The notes under the pieces are model-generated. The model searched no databases, was not told the origin of the DNA, and saw nothing but the letters and a program-made list of their open reading frames with translations. The position numbers were made by a program, and so were the translations under genes. Shown here piece by piece: positions 8,775-20,669 of a stretch of DNA of 21,811 nucleotides (positions are counted from its first letter, which is position 1; each line of letters opens with the position of its first letter). Origin of the DNA: a virus; IMG/VR virus record IMGVR_UViG_3300035670_001363, positions 1-21,811 of that record. One strand, given 5' to 3'.

Positions 8775-8814
8775 CACGGGCATGTTCTTCCTCACCCCGC
8801 GAAAGACCCCACCC

Positions 8815-9201
8815 ATGGCCACCATCCTCCTGGGCAAGCGCCCCGACACCTTCGCCCCCTTCGACGTCAAGTTCAAGGCTCCCGACGGCCGCGACCTCGT
8901 CATCCCCGCCGTCGCCTTCAAGTACCGCAGCCGCAAGGAGTTCGCTGCGCTGGTGGACGGCGTCAACGCGCGCCAGGGCTACCAGCCCGAGGCCGGCGAG
9001 ACCTTCAGCCTCGCCAAGGTCTTTGAGGCCGCCGACGGCAAGAGCAGCGACCTGCTGGCCGACAGCATCAAGGCCTGGGGCCTGGAGGAGCCGCTCACCC
9101 GGCAGACCTTCGAGCAGATCGTCGACGAAATGCCCGCCGCCTTCGCTGCCCTGTGGGAGTGCTACGCCGCTGCCGCGCGCGACGGCCGCTTGGGAAACTG
9201 A
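8815..9201 (+). CDS. Tail assembly chaperone, short form (gpG-like)
   Basis: This 128-residue protein is the probable equivalent of lambda gpG, the tail assembly chaperone that coats the tape measure protein while the tube polymerises. It is a small acidic/helical protein with the segment FDVKFKAPDGRDLVIPAVAFKYRSRKEF in its first half (about residues 14-42). The frame is open to an ATG at 8782, but the ATG at 8815 begins with MATILLGKRPDTF, fits the family better and is preceded by GAAAG at 8801-8805. Its last codons, GGA AAC TGA, contain the slippery heptamer GGGAAAC. A -1 slip there produces the longer form ending at 9521. The gene lies between tail tube and tape measure, as expected. Confidence 0.88.
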   Translation: MATILLGKRPDTFAPFDVKFKAPDGRDLVIPAVAFKYRSRKEFAALVDGVNARQGYQPEAGETFSLAKVFEAADGKSSDLLADSIKAWGLEEPLTRQTFEQIVDEMPAAFAALWECYAAAARDGRLGN

Positions 9202-9521
9202 AGAAGGCCGCCCACGCCGCCTATTTCCAGGCGCCGTCGGGCGGCATTGCCGGCGGCCTGTTCGACGCCGCCGACTACGACCTCGACCACGTCGAGCTCT
9301 GGCCCGAGAACTGGCCCGCCTGGCGGCTCTTCAGCCGCCTCGCCACGCAGTGGCGCATCGCCATGAACGGCCCCACGGGCCTGGACTACCAGCCGCTCAT
9401 GCGGCTGCTCGACCTGGAAGACCTCGGCCCTGCCGACTGGCAGGACCGATTCGACGACGTGCGCGTGCTGGAGGCAGCCGCGCTGGAGCAAATGCGCTCC
9501 AAGGACCCCGTGTCCACCTGA
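8815..9521 (+). CDS. Tail assembly chaperone, frameshift fusion (gpGT-like)
   Basis: This is the extended form, made when ribosomes slip -1 on GGGAAAC at 9192-9198. Residues 1-128 are shared with the short form. Translation then continues from CTG at 9198 as LKKAAHAAYFQAP and adds 107 residues, for 235 in total. The added part has SGGIAGGLFDAADYDLDHV, ELWPENWPAWRLFSRLATQW and GLDYQPLMRLLDLEDL, resembling the DUF1799-type T segment found after tail chaperones. The -1 frame has no convincing start of its own: upstream in-frame codons lie inside the G gene and give a low-complexity Arg-rich peptide. Known family behaviour is that the T part binds tail tube protein while G binds the tape measure. 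Confidence 0.85.
9192..9245 (+). promoter_or_regulatory. Programmed -1 ribosomal frameshift signal
   Basis: In the zero frame the heptamer reads G GGA AAC (9192-9198), directly before TGA at 9199-9201. This is the X XXY YYZ pattern, close to lambda's GGGAAAG. After an 8-base spacer, GCCGCCC (9207-9213) can pair with GGGCGGC (9239-9245) in a 7-bp all-GC stem. An inner stem CGCCT/AGGCG (9218-9222 with 9229-9233) can stack within it. This is a good candidate stimulatory structure. Confidence 0.85.
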
Positions 9522-15619: not shown

Positions 15620-16314
15620 TGCCCATCGACGCACTGCCCCCGGCCCCTCAGCCGACCGACGACACCGCGACCTTCAACGCCAAGGCCTTCGCCTTGATCG
15701 CGGCCCTGGCCGGCTTTGTGACGCAAGCCAATGCCTTGGGGGCCGGCGCCACCGCGGATGCCGCTGCGGCTCTGGCTGCGCGCATCGCAGCCGAGCTGGC
15801 CGAGGTGAATGCCGAGGCTGCGCAGACCGCTGCCCAGACCGCCGCCGCGCAGTCGGCGCAATCCGCCGGCGCCGCCCCCTGGGTGGCCGCTACGAATTAC
15901 GCCACCGGCACGCTCGCGGCCAGTCTGGTCACGGGCCTCGTCTACCGCCGCAAGGCCCCCGGCGGCGTCACGGCCACCGATCCTGCCAGCGACCCGACCA
16001 ACTGGTGGCTGGCCGTCATCTCCGCCCCGCTCTACCGGCCCGAGACCGGCGCGACCGCCACCGGCGAGGTCAACGTCGACCACGGCCTGCGCTACGCAGG
16101 CGCGCAGAACCTCAACATGCCCGCGCCGGGCTCGCTGGCCGTGGGCGACATCTTGTGGGTGCGCGTCGAGAACGGGCGTACCGACAACTACCTGACCCTG
16201 AACGGGGCCAAGGTCAACGGCGAAACCCAGGCCGATGACCGCCTGAACCTCAACGACCGTTTCGCGGCCGTGTGCTGCCGCTGGACCGGCGCCACCTATG
16301 GATGGAGCATCTGA
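15619..16314 (+). CDS. Tail fibre-like protein with a carbohydrate-binding-like module
   Basis: This 231-residue protein is probably a minor tail or short fibre component. Residues about 40-85 are Ala/Glu/Gln-rich and helical (AARIAAELAEVNAEAAQTAA), which suggests a trimeric coiled coil. Residues 87-133 (PWVAATNYATGTLAASLV, VYRRKAPGG, DPTNWWLAV) look like the small aromatic-rich carbohydrate-binding-like module common in phage fibres. The C-terminal 100 residues are beta-rich (VNVDHGLRYAGAQNLNMPAP, ILWVRVENGRTDNYLTLNG). The start overlaps the preceding stop as TGATG, and the stop overlaps the next start the same way. An upstream extension of this frame to 14710 only shadows the previous gene and is rejected. 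Exact function unknown. Confidence 0.8.
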   Translation: MPIDALPPAPQPTDDTATFNAKAFALIAALAGFVTQANALGAGATADAAAALAARIAAELAEVNAEAAQTAAQTAAAQSAQSAGAAPWVAATNYATGTLAASLVTGLVYRRKAPGGVTATDPASDPTNWWLAVISAPLYRPETGATATGEVNVDHGLRYAGAQNLNMPAPGSLAVGDILWVRVENGRTDNYLTLNGAKVNGETQADDRLNLNDRFAAVCCRWTGATYGWSI

Positions 16315-17618
16315 TGGGCGACCTTTCAAATTTCCGCGGTCGTGTCTCCCGCTTGGGTGATGTCAAGAGCATGACCCTGGCCGGTCCAGCCCTGCTGATC
16401 GACGACTCGATCCGCTGGCTGCGCACCGGCAAGTTGATCGCCTATGGCGCCGACTACGCGCCGCTGCTGGTCGATCAGCCCGGCCTGCTGGTCACGGCCT
16501 ACCCGGCGCGTGTCAGCAGCTACAACCAGGCCAACTACGCCAACCTGGGCGTGAAGTTCCTCCGCGCTGGCAGCAAGAACTGGCAGATCGATGGCGGCGT
16601 CAGCGGCGACCAGGTCGGCGTCCGCTATTCGGCCGACGGGTCGCTGACCTTCGCCACCAACGCCATCCTGGGCGCCACGGACTACTTGGTCGGGGCCTAT
16701 GGCGCCTTTGCCATCGGCAGCAATGTGGTCGTGTTCGGCAGCGCCGACACCAACCAGACCGGCTGCACCTACTCGGCCAATGGCGCCATCTTCGCTGCGC
16801 CAACCGGACTGCCGACCGGCAGCACGGTCAGCATCGCCTGCGGTGCGGCCAGCGCGTCGCTGGGTGTGATTCTTCGCGCCGATACGCCGGGCGCCAACGG
16901 GGCGGGCTTCTACACCACCACCGACGGTTCCAGCTTCACGAACCGCACGGGCACCGGCGGCACCAACGGCAGCATTAGCTCCATGCACTGGTCGCAGGCC
17001 GGCGCCCGTTTCCTCTACGTGGTGGGCACTGCCGCCCTGAACAGCACCACGGACGGCTACACGCAGACGGCCTTGACCCTGCCCGCCAATGTGAGCTTCG
17101 TGCAGGGCGATACCTGGGGCAAGCGCTTTGCCAGCAGCGCCAGCGCCTCGCTGTTCCTGCTCGCCGATGGCCGCGTGCTGCGCACCACCGATGGCGTGGC
17201 CTTCACCGCCATCGACCCGACGAATGGCGGCCTGCAGGCGAGCGTCGGTGCCCAGGCCGTCATCGGCTACGACCCGACGAACACCCGCTTCGTCATCGCC
17301 ATCAACGCCGGCGGCACCGCGGCGCCGGCCTTCCTGTTCTCCGACGACCAGGGCCTGACCTGGCAGATGAGCACCGCCTTCGAGGACTTCCACGCCGGCA
17401 CCAGCGTTGCCAACGCGCCCCGGGTGATGGGCTTTGGCGAAGCCACCGTCAGCGGCACGCGCTTCATCGCCGCGGCCGGCCCGGCCAGTGGCGGCGGCGG
17501 AGACCGCCTGTTCGACATCACCGGCATGGCGATGCGCACTCCGAGCTTTGTGGGCACCTACCGGGCCAGCAAGGTCATGGCGGATCTTGAGTTTCCTCAC
17601 TACCTGCGAGTCAAGTGA
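16314..17618 (+). CDS. Putative Asp-box beta-propeller tail fibre / receptor-binding protein
   Basis: This 434-residue protein is best described by its repeats. Asp-box-like motifs (S/T-x-D-x-G-x-x-F/W) occur at residues 106 (SADGSLTF), 154 (SANGAIF, degenerate), 202 (TTDGSSF), 245 (TTDGYTQT, degenerate), 291 (TTDGVAF) and 343 (SDDQGLTW). The spacing is 43 to 52 residues, as expected for blades of a six- or seven-bladed propeller. Such folds occur in sialidases and in Asp-box surface proteins. I see no clear sialidase active-site arginine triad, so a binding role is more likely than catalysis. The N-terminal ~60 residues probably attach it to the tail. I chose the ATG at 16314 (TGATG overlap). 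An in-frame start at 16272 lies inside the previous gene. Confidence 0.78.
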   Translation: MGDLSNFRGRVSRLGDVKSMTLAGPALLIDDSIRWLRTGKLIAYGADYAPLLVDQPGLLVTAYPARVSSYNQANYANLGVKFLRAGSKNWQIDGGVSGDQVGVRYSADGSLTFATNAILGATDYLVGAYGAFAIGSNVVVFGSADTNQTGCTYSANGAIFAAPTGLPTGSTVSIACGAASASLGVILRADTPGANGAGFYTTTDGSSFTNRTGTGGTNGSISSMHWSQAGARFLYVVGTAALNSTTDGYTQTALTLPANVSFVQGDTWGKRFASSASASLFLLADGRVLRTTDGVAFTAIDPTNGGLQASVGAQAVIGYDPTNTRFVIAINAGGTAAPAFLFSDDQGLTWQMSTAFEDFHAGTSVANAPRVMGFGEATVSGTRFIAAAGPASGGGGDRLFDITGMAMRTPSFVGTYRASKVMADLEFPHYLRVK

Positions 17619-18025
17619 TGTCCATCCAACTCTCCCCCGGCGTGCCGTCCCTCGACGCCAGCGACTTCCAAGCCACGCACAACGGCGTCACCTTCGGTCT
17701 GAAGCTCCGCCACCTTCCAACGCCGGACGGCTCCACGGTGACATCACTGCTGCTGGTCGAACGCAACGCCTCTGGGTCCTGGGACTTCAAGGCTGAGATT
17801 GACCGCGACTTCATCCCCGCCCTGGAGGCCGACATGAGCGCATGGCTGGCGAGCGCACTCGCCAAGATCAACCTCTGGCTGCGCCAGCGCTTCAGCGACG
17901 GCGGCAGCGCCCCGGCGCCCGGGCCGCTGCCCTCCTATGTGCCAGCGGCGCTCGGCACGCTGGACGGCATGCTGCGCGCGCTGAAGACGGAAATCGTTGC
18001 GGGTGTTCCACAGGTCAAGGCATGA
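17618..18025 (+). CDS. Hypothetical protein between fibre and receiver-domain genes
   Basis: I do not recognise this 135-residue protein. Residues 1-68 look beta-rich (QATHNGVTFGLKLRHLP, STVTSLLLVERNASGSWDF). Residues 70-93 are helical (IPALEADMSAWLASALAKIN). A Pro/Gly-rich linker (about 94-110) leads to a final helix (LGTLDGMLRALKTEI). There is no signal peptide or membrane segment. It overlaps the fibre gene as TGATG and the next gene as ATGA, so it is translated with the fibre/lysis string. It could be a fibre chaperone or a small tail component, judging by position only. Confidence 0.8.
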   Translation: MSIQLSPGVPSLDASDFQATHNGVTFGLKLRHLPTPDGSTVTSLLLVERNASGSWDFKAEIDRDFIPALEADMSAWLASALAKINLWLRQRFSDGGSAPAPGPLPSYVPAALGTLDGMLRALKTEIVAGVPQVKA

Positions 18026-18747
18026 CGCCTCCCAACAGCGCCTTCTTCGACAGCGACACCGTGCGACTTCTTGATGGCATCGGAGCCCAGGGCGCGCCAC
18101 AGTTGCGGGCGCTGCTGGTGGACGACGACCCAATCCAGCTGCAGGTCACCGGCATTGCACTGCGGCGCGCCGGCTTTGCCGTCTCCGCGGCCACGACCGG
18201 CAGCGAGGCCCTGCGCCTCTTTGCCGAGCACTTGTTCAACGTCGCCGTGGTCGACCTGGGTCTGCCTGACTCCGACGGCGTTGATGTCATTCAGTGGATG
18301 CGCCAGGCCCTGCACGGCCCCACCGTGCGCATCGTTGCCTGGACGTCAAGCACCGAGGAGGCAGTTCTCGAGCGCGCTCTTCAAGCAGGTGCTGATGACG
18401 TCTACCAAAAGCACCTCGGCCCGGCCGTCATCCTGGCCAAGTTCCAGCGCCTGGCGGCCGAGATTACCAACGAGTCCAGCACGGCGTCGCGGCTGCTGCG
18501 GCTAGAGAAGGTCATCGAGAGCTTTGCCAAGTCTCAGGAAGAGATGAGCGAGGCGATTAAAGGCATGCGAGCCGACATCGCTCCTATGCGTGAAGTCGTT
18601 CAGGACTGGATGGATGCGCAGGCTTTCAAGCGGTCGGTGCGCGACTTCTTCGGGCTACTGCGTCGCTTCTGGGTATGGATCGCTGCCTTTGCTACCGCAG
18701 TTGTGACCGTTTGGTCGGTCATTCAGCTGCCAAAGGCCCCGAAATGA
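18022..18747 (+). CDS. Response-regulator receiver domain joined to a coiled coil and C-terminal membrane helix
   Basis: Residues about 29-145 of this 241-residue protein are a complete CheY-like receiver domain. It has the acidic pair D34/D35 in LLVDDDPIQL, phosphoacceptor D78 in VAVVDLGLPDSDG, the switch Thr T108 and Lys K130 in DDVYQKHLGP. The D78-T108 and T108-K130 spacings (30 and 22) equal those of CheY D57-T87-K109. Residues about 156-198 form a charged, heptad-like helix. Residues about 214-236 (RRFWVWIAAFATAVVTVWSVI) are one membrane helix, preceded by Arg/Lys and followed by a short KAPK tail, which fits a cytoplasmic receiver. There is no DNA-binding or enzymatic output domain. It overlaps neighbours as ATGA on both sides, directly before the lysis genes. 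About a quarter of its codons end in A or T, more than most neighbours. Function unknown. Confidence 0.9.
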   Translation: MTPPNSAFFDSDTVRLLDGIGAQGAPQLRALLVDDDPIQLQVTGIALRRAGFAVSAATTGSEALRLFAEHLFNVAVVDLGLPDSDGVDVIQWMRQALHGPTVRIVAWTSSTEEAVLERALQAGADDVYQKHLGPAVILAKFQRLAAEITNESSTASRLLRLEKVIESFAKSQEEMSEAIKGMRADIAPMREVVQDWMDAQAFKRSVRDFFGLLRRFWVWIAAFATAVVTVWSVIQLPKAPK

Positions 18748-18926
18748 CGCAGCGGCCTATTGCCTGGCTGGTTATTGACTTGCGCGGCCGCCGCTCGGTC
18801 TACATCGACCGCTCCCGCGCCGAGTCCCAGGCGGTGGCACAGCACGGCGTGCTGGTGGAGCTGGTGCCGCTGGTGCCGCTTCATGAACCTGACCCGGGAG
18901 ATGATCGCCATGACGCTGCTGCCTGA
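18744..18926 (+). CDS. Small phage protein at the head of the lysis block
   Basis: This 60-residue protein begins MTQRPIAWLVIDLRGRRSVY and continues with DRSRAESQAVAQHGVLVELV, ending in an acidic/His tail. Small proteins of this AWLV...RR type are often found in phage late regions; I know of no defined function. AAAGG at 18732-18736 lies seven bases before the ATG, which overlaps the previous stop as ATGA. The frame is open to 18675, but that extension covers the membrane-helix coding part of the receiver gene and is rejected. The 3' end overlaps the holin gene by 17 bases. Confidence 0.72.
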   Translation: MTQRPIAWLVIDLRGRRSVYIDRSRAESQAVAQHGVLVELVPLVPLHEPDPGDDRHDAAA

Positions 18927-19125
18927 CTGGAAGCGCGTTGCGCGCAAGGCATGGAGCGTGCGCTTGGGCCTGCTGGCTGCGCTTCTGGGGGCGGCTGAGG
19001 TCGGGATTCAGCTCTTTGCGGTGAGCCGGCCGACCCCTTACCTGGCCATGGCTGCCGCGGTGCTGAGCTTGGCCGCAAGCATCGCCCGACTGGTGGCGCA
19101 ACCAAGGATGCACGATGAGCGCTAA
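18910..19125 (+). CDS. Holin
   Basis: This 71-residue protein has two predicted membrane helices, about residues 15-34 (VRLGLLAALLGAAEVGIQLF) and 40-58 (TPYLAMAAAVLSLAASIAR). The N-terminus is basic (LLPDWKRVARKAWS) and the end charged (QPRMHDER). The WKRV.RKAWSVRL opening is typical of small holins in phages of Proteobacteria. It would permeabilise or depolarise the inner membrane and so trigger the endolysin. Three in-frame ATGs exist (18883, 18901, 18910). I chose 18910 because GGGAG at 18896-18900 lies nine bases upstream. A longer form from 18883 would add nine residues, and such dual starts can give holin/antiholin pairs, though no evidence here requires it. It overlaps the endolysin gene by 11 bases. 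Confidence 0.85.
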   Translation: MTLLPDWKRVARKAWSVRLGLLAALLGAAEVGIQLFAVSRPTPYLAMAAAVLSLAASIARLVAQPRMHDER

Positions 19126-19591
19126 CCCGAAATTCAAACGCGGCGCGGCCGTTGGCCTTGGGGCCTCGGTGCTGGCCCTGGCGCTGCCGGTGGTTGCACT
19201 GTGGGAGGGCTTGAGCCTCACCCCCTACCGCGATCCCGTGGGGATCATGACCGTCTGCTACGGCGAGACCGCAGGCGAGATGCGCGAGTTCACGGCGGCA
19301 GAGTGCAAGACCAAGCTGCACGAGAGCCTAGCCGCGCACGGCGCTGACATTGCGGCCTGTCTCCCTGCCGGACTGCCCGAGCATGTTCAAGCCGCCAGCC
19401 TGAGCTTTGCCTACAACGTGGGCGCGCAAGCATTCTGCGGCTCCACCATGCGCCGCAAGCTGGCCGAAGGCGACCTGCTGGGCGCCTGCGCCGAGTTGAG
19501 CCGCTGGACCTACGCCAAGGGCAAGCAACTGCCTGGCCTAGTCAAGCGCCGCGCCGCCGAGCGGGCGATGTGCGAGGGCAGGAAAACATGA
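19115..19591 (+). CDS. Endolysin, GH24 lysozyme with N-terminal SAR-type anchor
   Basis: This 158-residue protein is a T4-type lysozyme that cleaves the peptidoglycan glycan strand. The catalytic signature E-x8-D-x5-T is exact: E31, D40 and T46 in WEGLSLTPYRDPVGIMTVCYG. Residues about 11-30 form a weakly hydrophobic Gly/Ala-rich segment preceded by a basic N-terminus (KFKRG), typical of a signal-arrest-release sequence that is exported by the host Sec system and stays membrane-tethered until depolarisation. Six Cys are present (C48, C64, C82, C108 and two near the C-terminus), as in lysozymes activated or stabilised by disulfides in the periplasm. AAGGA at 19104-19108 is a good ribosome binding site. 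The stop overlaps the spanin ATG. Confidence 0.93.
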   Translation: MSANPKFKRGAAVGLGASVLALALPVVALWEGLSLTPYRDPVGIMTVCYGETAGEMREFTAAECKTKLHESLAAHGADIAACLPAGLPEHVQAASLSFAYNVGAQAFCGSTMRRKLAEGDLLGACAELSRWTYAKGKQLPGLVKRRAAERAMCEGRKT

Positions 19592-20142
19592 CCCCCGACC
19601 AACGCCTCCTCGCCACCCTGGGCGGCTACCTGCTGGGCGCCGTGCTGCTGCTCGCCGGCGGCGCCTGGGTGGGCTACGCCTGGCGCGACCGCGGCGCCGA
19701 CCGCGACCTGGCCGAGTGCCAGCGCGCGCACGCCGAGGCCCTGGCCATCACCCTGCGCGCCGCGCAGGCGGCCGAGGGCGATTACCGCGCCCGCGAGGCG
19801 CAGATCCACGACCAGCACCAGGAGATCATCCGTGCCGCCAACACCGCCACCACTGCCGCGCGCGCTGACGCTGATCGCGTGCGCACTGCTCTTGACCGCC
19901 TGCGCCGCGCCGCAGCCGTTGCCCCCCGTGGTGGTGACCCCGCCGCGCATCCCGCCACTGCCGCCGGAAGCGCGCCAGCCGGTGCCGCCGCCGATCTGCC
20001 GCCCGACTTGCTCTGGCGGCTTGGCCAGGCTGCTGGAGAGCTCGCTGCTTTCGCCGATACCAGCCGCACCGCCGGCCTCGCCTGCGAGCGCGACGCCGAC
20101 TCGGTGAGGGCGGCGCTGCCGCGTCTAGGTGGCGCCCCATGA
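19588..20142 (+). CDS. Rz: Inner-membrane spanin (Rz-like)
   Basis: This 184-residue protein has one N-terminal membrane helix (about residues 8-30, LATLGGYLLGAVLLLAGGAWVGYAW split by Gly), followed by a long charged periplasmic helix (RDRGADRDLAECQRAHAEAL to RADADRVRTALDRL). This is the standard i-spanin form, which joins the Rz1 lipoprotein to fuse inner and outer membranes in the last step of lysis. The frame is open to a GTG at 19570, but the ATG at 19588 overlaps the endolysin stop as ATGA and has AGGA at 19580-19583. The C-terminal part (about 110-184) is Ala/Pro-rich, because the same DNA also encodes Rz1 in another frame. Confidence 0.9.
   Translation: MTPDQRLLATLGGYLLGAVLLLAGGAWVGYAWRDRGADRDLAECQRAHAEALAITLRAAQAAEGDYRAREAQIHDQHQEIIRAANTATTAARADADRVRTALDRLRRAAAVAPRGGDPAAHPATAAGSAPAGAAADLPPDLLWRLGQAAGELAAFADTSRTAGLACERDADSVRAALPRLGGAP
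19832..20107 (+). CDS. Rz1: Outer-membrane spanin lipoprotein (Rz1-like), nested in Rz
   Basis: This 91-residue reading frame lies wholly inside the Rz gene in the +1 frame. It has a signal peptide (ALTLIACALLL) ending in the lipobox L21-T22-A23-C24, followed by a Pro-rich mature part (PLPPVVVTPPRIPPLPP), both hallmarks of Rz1 o-spanins. The start is a GTG at 19832 with AGGAG at 19820-19824, seven bases upstream. After maturation C24 would be lipidated and the protein sorted to the outer leaflet side, where it binds Rz. It implies a Gram-negative host. Fully nested Rz1 genes are known from lambda-like phages. Confidence 0.9.
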   Translation: MPPTPPPLPRALTLIACALLLTACAAPQPLPPVVVTPPRIPPLPPEARQPVPPPICRPTCSGGLARLLESSLLSPIPAAPPASPASATPTR

Positions 20143-20669
20143 GCGCCATCCTCATCCAGGGCAACACCCGCGTGCCGCACCTGGTGTTCGCCGTCAGCCG
20201 ACGCACGCGCCTGCCCAGCGTCGTTACCCGCCTAGCCACCTCAGGCGCCCTCTGGTCGCACTCCGCCTTCTACGACGTGGAGCGCGGCGTCATGAACGAG
20301 GCGCTGCTGTTCAAGGGCATGGTGCAGACGCCTGTACACGAATGGGTGCAGCGCTACCCGAGCCGCGAGTTCTTCGCTGTGCCGGTGCCCGACCCGGCGG
20401 CCGGTATCGCCTGGCGTCGCTCCATCCTTGGCCAGGGCTACGACTACCTCGGCGCGCTGGGCGTGCCGTGGCGCGGCGACTGGCAGGCCGAGGGCCGCTG
20501 GTACTGCAGCGAGGCCGACACCGTCACCTGCCTGCACGCCGGCCGCCAGCTCTTCGTTGACCACGACGGCGTCGTCAAGAGCCGCGGGGTCTGCCCGCAC
20601 GACTTCTGGCGCGTGGGCCGCGCCTTGGGGCTCAGCCCGAGCCCGTCTTTCCTTCCCTCCCTGACCTGA
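20139..20669 (+). CDS. Putative permuted NlpC/P60-like (papain-fold) protein
   Basis: This 176-residue protein has the motif order of circularly permuted papain-fold hydrolases of the YiiX/NlpC-like type: a His in an N-terminal SHSAFYD segment (H41), Glu in MNEALLFKG (E54), and a Cys near the C-terminal side in RWYCSEAD (C123). The middle has HEWVQRYP, VPVPDP and GQGYDYLGALG, the last of which is common in this fold (an aromatic-rich loop before the Cys). Such proteins act as peptidoglycan amidases/peptidases or thioesterases; the substrate here is not known. Lambda-like phages encode an NlpC-type tip protein upstream of lysis genes, whereas this one follows the spanins. The start overlaps the Rz stop as ATGA. 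The C-terminal ~20 residues look unstructured. Confidence 0.7.
   Translation: MSAILIQGNTRVPHLVFAVSRRTRLPSVVTRLATSGALWSHSAFYDVERGVMNEALLFKGMVQTPVHEWVQRYPSREFFAVPVPDPAAGIAWRRSILGQGYDYLGALGVPWRGDWQAEGRWYCSEADTVTCLHAGRQLFVDHDGVVKSRGVCPHDFWRVGRALGLSPSPSFLPSLT

Follow-up and report, generated by a model that had tools for sequence, protein, structure and literature searches.

The window, by which we mean the whole stretch of DNA analysed (21,811 bases), is a 21.8-kb metagenomic fragment with the genes of a siphophage: small and large terminase, head protease, HK97 capsid, major tail protein and tape measure, together with a tail protein of PHROG 6278, a holin, a lysozyme and Rz/Rz1. Within its late operon, just upstream of the lysis genes, lies a plus-strand gene (18022–18747) for a 241-aa protein in which the ORF call, Pfam, a structure model and hydropathy delineate a response-regulator receiver, a coiled coil and one transmembrane (TM) helix. 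The gene overlaps both neighbours by ATGA, at 18022–18025 with the plus-strand ORF 17615–18025 and at 18744–18747 with a putative plus-strand ORF of 60 codons (18744–18926). These overlaps and the phage setting agree with the first-pass annotation, which had placed the gene in the late translational string; the same annotation set it directly before the holin, which does not hold, because the 60-codon ORF intervenes and the holin starts at about 18910.

The upstream coupled ORF has a homologue in a related phage (L002), where it lies 3′ of the same tail gene as in the window. The 60-codon ORF is an ORF call with neither a family nor a relative in Pfam, PHROG and sequence searches, and pattern scans of viral contigs returned no relatives of either ORF. 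No promoter-like site was found in the region of the receiver gene and no terminator-like site beside it; a defence-system search and an Rfam search gave no match. The GC content of the receiver gene is the lowest among the genes compared (0.629 vs. 0.694 for the window) and is especially low in its coiled-coil/TM part (0.576). Relatives of the PHROG 6278 tail protein sit in genomes of Burkholderiales (e.g. Paracidovorax and Delftia), and the host of the virus therefore probably belongs to that order.

The lysis genes follow on the plus strand: a putative holin with two TM helices (18910–19125), assigned by profile matches to DUF7940 (PF25612) and PHROG 1356, whose start is probably position 18910, given a GGGAG at suitable spacing upstream; a phage lysozyme endolysin (19115–19591; PF00959, E = 2e-35); an Rz-like inner-membrane spanin (19570–20142; PF10721, PHROG 312); and, nested within Rz, an Rz1-like lipoprotein ORF recognizable by its lipobox LLLTACAAP (19832–20107). 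The endolysin has a SAR-like N-terminus, in which the K/R-rich MSANPKFKR precedes an Ala/Gly-rich, weakly hydrophobic stretch, and part of its gene is similar at the DNA level to a gene annotated as SAR-endolysin; it is likely to be a SAR endolysin. If so, the DUF7940 holin could be a pinholin. Three further observations concern other parts of the window. The 176-aa ORF after Rz (20139–20669) matches PHROG 1128 (E = 6e-10) and, on a reading of its motifs (HSAF..., WYCSE), could encode a papain-like/NlpC-P60-type enzyme. A 448-aa tail-region protein (16272–17618) has no phage family match and a BNR/Asp-box match below threshold. The tape measure gene is immediately preceded by two overlapping ORFs (8782–9201 and 9153–9521), a position that usually holds a frameshifted tail-assembly chaperone pair.

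Receiver domain, coiled coil and membrane helix

The receiver domain is genuine. Response_reg (PF00072), the family that the first-pass annotation had named for an HMM check, matches residues 31–140 (E = 8e-21; 74.7 bits vs. a cut-off of 30.2) and is the only Pfam family above cut-off in the protein; Pfam, conservation, the model and Foldseek together place the domain at residues ~29–145 (18106–18456, plus strand). All five residues of the phosphorylation pocket are kept (D34, D35, D78, T108 and K130), as that annotation had claimed, but two positions are atypical: the switch aromatic, Y/F in 38 of 42 comparison receivers, is V127, and the proline after the lysine, present in 41 of the 42, is H131, the comparison set having been drawn from the genomes of four bacteria, with a few records of plasmids and phages added, and consisting mostly of receivers picked by their similarity to this one rather than at random. 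Neither feature is needed for membership of PF00072; both are relevant to the switching mechanism. Phosphorylation of the receiver is thus chemically plausible from its residues, and classical allosteric coupling is less certain: with both of these conserved residues lost, even a complete pocket is no assurance of classical phospho-switching.

The claim that the protein lacks a DNA-binding or enzymatic output likewise stood up to Pfam, NCBIfam and PHROG searches. There is no Pfam match outside the receiver, and the NCBIfam and PHROG matches cover the receiver and extend no further than the beginning of the helix that follows it; the remainder is coiled coil and TM helix. By sequence the closest receivers are those of OmpR/PhoB-type regulators (PrrA, BfmR, RstA and PhoP), which have the fold and the catalytic pocket in common with the window protein; unlike them, the window protein has no DNA-binding or enzymatic output, carries V127 and H131, and is membrane-anchored.

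Residues 155–196 (18484–18609, plus strand), on the helix that runs on from receiver α5, show coiled-coil periodicity: 10 of 12 a/d positions are hydrophobic, and 5 of 5000 shuffles were equally good, a post hoc count in that the stretch was selected after inspection. One TM helix follows at residues ~216–234 (18667–18723, plus strand; Kyte–Doolittle 1.99). Five basic residues flank it on the N-terminal side (K203, R204, R207, R214 and R215), and the positive-inside rule therefore predicts a cytoplasmic receiver and an N-in/C-out protein. The heptad test, the hydropathy and the charges accord with the layout first read from the sequence, a heptad-like helix and one membrane helix with the receiver kept in the cytoplasm. 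DUF6127, DUF2730 (up to E = 1) and XhlA (PF10779) gave no match in the window protein. A match to Phage_holin_2_2 fell below threshold (E = 0.79 for the whole protein, 0.02 for the C-terminal half), and we do not take it as evidence that the protein is a holin.

A single-sequence structure model of the protein reached a mean pLDDT of 46; an eight-row alignment (the window protein, three receiver segments and four coiled-coil/TM proteins) raised the mean to 80.7, with 82–96 in the receiver core over blocks of ten residues. The latter model has a CheY-like alternating β/α receiver fold, followed by one helix (residues 134–235) that spans both the coiled coil and the membrane segment. Foldseek against the PDB matched receivers, the best being DrrB (3nns; TM-score to target ~0.9). 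Confidence in the long helix lies below that in the core (pLDDT 54–90), and structure predictors commonly draw uncertain helical stretches as one unbroken helix; for both reasons the modelled continuity from α5 through the coiled coil into the membrane is suggestive only.

Rarity of the domain combination

The receiver–coiled coil–TM arrangement is a real, unusual domain combination, represented by this one example. Receivers had been described as rare in phage structural and lysis regions, and the related phages bear this out: across 80 loci that encode the tail protein and 23 that encode the holin, phmmer found no ORF with a receiver at E values up to 1, and PF00072 matched none of 48 whole related phage records, several of them fragments, while it does match the window record itself. 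A search for receiver–helix–TM relatives, also suggested by the first-pass annotation, returned no whole-protein relative from viral contigs, bacterial genome contigs, phages (INPHARED) or plasmids, the scans reaching close relatives or exact motifs, so that a diverged family could escape them. Nearly all INPHARED matches cover the receiver only; those with annotation are host-type regulators, many of the records resemble host DNA, and the single long match is unannotated. The plasmid matches of higher coverage that we inspected are cellular regulators or unannotated. Searches with the C-terminal half alone returned no close relatives from viral contigs, and none from 399 genomes of one order, a set searched without a positive control. 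Within the limited literature collection searched, nothing relevant was found on phage lysis regions with a receiver or on membrane-anchored response regulators.

Viral-contig proteins retrieved by receiver-motif scans were set aside as candidates: they are transcriptional regulators of ordinary layout or hybrid kinases, and many represent one PhoP-like gene. The recurrence of this PhoP-like regulator across many viral contigs (L161–L214) is probably a prophage boundary effect.

The position before the holin in related phages

The loci with a DUF7940 holin show what commonly stands before it. A short protein with a C-terminal TM helix directly precedes the holin in 18 of the 22 loci with enough upstream sequence to judge (L085, whose upstream sequence was not assessed, is left out), about 15 of the 18 forming one closely related DUF6127 group, so that the independent cases are nearer four. 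Two loci (L083 and L102) have no short TM protein at this position, and a third (L103) has a different single-TM ORF. The pre-holin proteins (L082, L101 and L104; the DUF6127 group, L084 etc.) have in common with the window protein a C-terminal TM helix, a cytoplasmic helical stretch and a position before the holin. They differ from it in carrying no receiver and in standing directly before the holin, where the window has the 60-codon ORF in between; the window protein, for its part, has no DUF6127 match.

A weak profile similarity links the window protein to four coiled-coil/TM proteins (L082, L101, L104 and L040). The best single match of its C-terminal half is L101 (phmmer, E = 0.034 among ~16,000 ORFs). 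A profile of the four, built without the window protein, scored 17.2 bits against that half, and none of 1000 segment-wise shuffles scored as high (best 14.7), although the margin is small, biased coiled-coil/TM composition can inflate such scores, and the profile is not fully independent, L101 having been chosen because it matched and L040 having been found through a profile to which the window protein had contributed. When L101 was removed the score was 15.3 bits, again above all of 2000 shuffles (best 13.9). The similarity supports either common descent or strong convergence between the C-terminal half and the pre-holin coiled-coil/TM class. Because this half resembles proteins that stand immediately before the DUF7940 holin elsewhere, the case for a lysis role amounts to more than proximity.

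Possible roles of the receiver protein

Two known proteins serve as precedents. Mu gp25, a membrane-tethered cytoplasmic protein, is needed for the release of the SAR endolysin (PMC9239132). This releasin (DUF2730) resembles the window protein as a cytoplasmic helper that is tethered to the membrane and whose lysis region includes a SAR-type endolysin (PMC9239132), and differs from it in its N-terminal TM helix and N-out/C-in topology (C-terminal and predicted N-in/C-out in the window protein), in the absence of a holin from Mu, and in having no receiver; the window protein has no DUF2730 match. LysF1b, a single-TM protein that governs lysis in mycobacteriophages, combines one TM helix with a cytoplasmic domain and is encoded next to a holin-like protein with two TM helices in a lysis cassette (PMC13056207). 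Its TM helix is N-terminal (N-out/C-in), it has no receiver, and we set it beside the window protein as a non-homologous precedent. By analogy, the two say only that membrane-tethered cytoplasmic lysis helpers exist.

We tentatively prefer, as possible rather than probable, the reading that the gene encodes an accessory protein of the lysis cassette onto which a receiver has been grafted, and that the state of the receiver changes the timing of lysis. The cytoplasmic coiled coil and single membrane helix would correspond to the accessory type that usually stands just before the DUF7940 holin, with the receiver added at its cytoplasmic end. Such a protein would most likely associate with the holin or with the SAR-type endolysin; D78 would or would not carry a phosphoryl group donated by a host kinase or small phosphodonor; the state of the receiver would alter the packing of α5, the coiled coil and the TM helix; and the altered packing would speed up or delay lysis. 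Oligomerisation, phosphorylation, the partner and the effect on lysis are all points that we infer. In favour of this accessory role we count the PF00072 match, the intact pocket, the structure model with its receiver matches in the PDB, the short C-terminal-TM proteins that precede the holin in related loci, the profile score, the ATGA coupling and the precedents of Mu gp25 and LysF1b. Against it we count the single example with no whole-protein homologue, the weakness of the C-terminal-half similarity, the atypical V127 and H131, the orphan ORF before the holin, and the two loci whose holins have no such upstream protein; moreover, the precedents are opposite in topology and non-homologous, and a role of the coiled-coil/TM class in lysis is itself only putative.

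How far phosphorylation enters is a separate matter. That phosphorylation gates the protein, which would then be the first lysis regulator of this kind in a phage, its receiver being set by acetyl phosphate or by the kinase of a host two-component system and so directly advancing or delaying holin triggering or endolysin release, strikes us as doubtful. It is rather unlikely, too, that the protein is a lysis accessory whose receiver serves as a structural or protein-binding module, for dimerisation or docking, independently of phosphorylation: the changes at V127 and H131 while the receiver fold is retained, and the precedent of receivers that work without phosphorylation, would suit such a module, but the conservation of all five pocket residues would be unexpected had phosphorylation long been irrelevant. 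A membrane-tethered decoy, which late in infection would soak up phosphoryl groups or titrate a host kinase or regulator, and so block envelope-stress responses or superinfecting phage while leaving the lysis proteins untouched, would fit the intact pocket, the missing output domain and the membrane location; it is nevertheless improbable, given that the gene stands in the late operon at the lysis region, that its C-terminal half is like holin-adjacent proteins, and that a decoy would serve better early in infection.

Two other explanations would take the gene out of the lysis module altogether. Its low GC content and the variation of the neighbouring slot among related phages are what one would expect of recently acquired cargo (a moron) lodged by chance between tail and lysis genes with no lysis role, yet the ATGA overlaps with both neighbours, the lack of a promoter-like site in the region and of a terminator-like site beside the gene, and a coiled-coil/TM half that suits the slot make this quite improbable. 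That a host gene was joined to a phage contig during assembly is highly improbable: the protein does come from a single metagenomic record, but the gene has 4-base overlaps with phage ORFs at both ends, the ORF upstream of it is matched by a phage homologue 3′ of the same tail gene, and no host gene of receiver–coiled coil–TM layout was found in the bacterial genomes searched.

In the usual account the holin itself sets when lysis occurs, and few external inputs to this timing are known. If the accessory role with a switching receiver is correct, a receiver in a membrane protein of the lysis cassette would let the phage read host two-component signalling or the level of a metabolic phosphodonor, all within a compact lysis module of ~2 kb; the locus thus hints at a virus that may allow the signalling state of its host to affect when the cell bursts. 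Even if phosphorylation is irrelevant, a signalling fold would appear to be recruitable onto a lysis accessory protein. Of separate interest is one related locus (L004:11767–12087) at which the ORF directly before the DUF7940 holin encodes an N-terminal TM helix and a charged cytoplasmic helix, a predicted topology like that of the Mu releasin.
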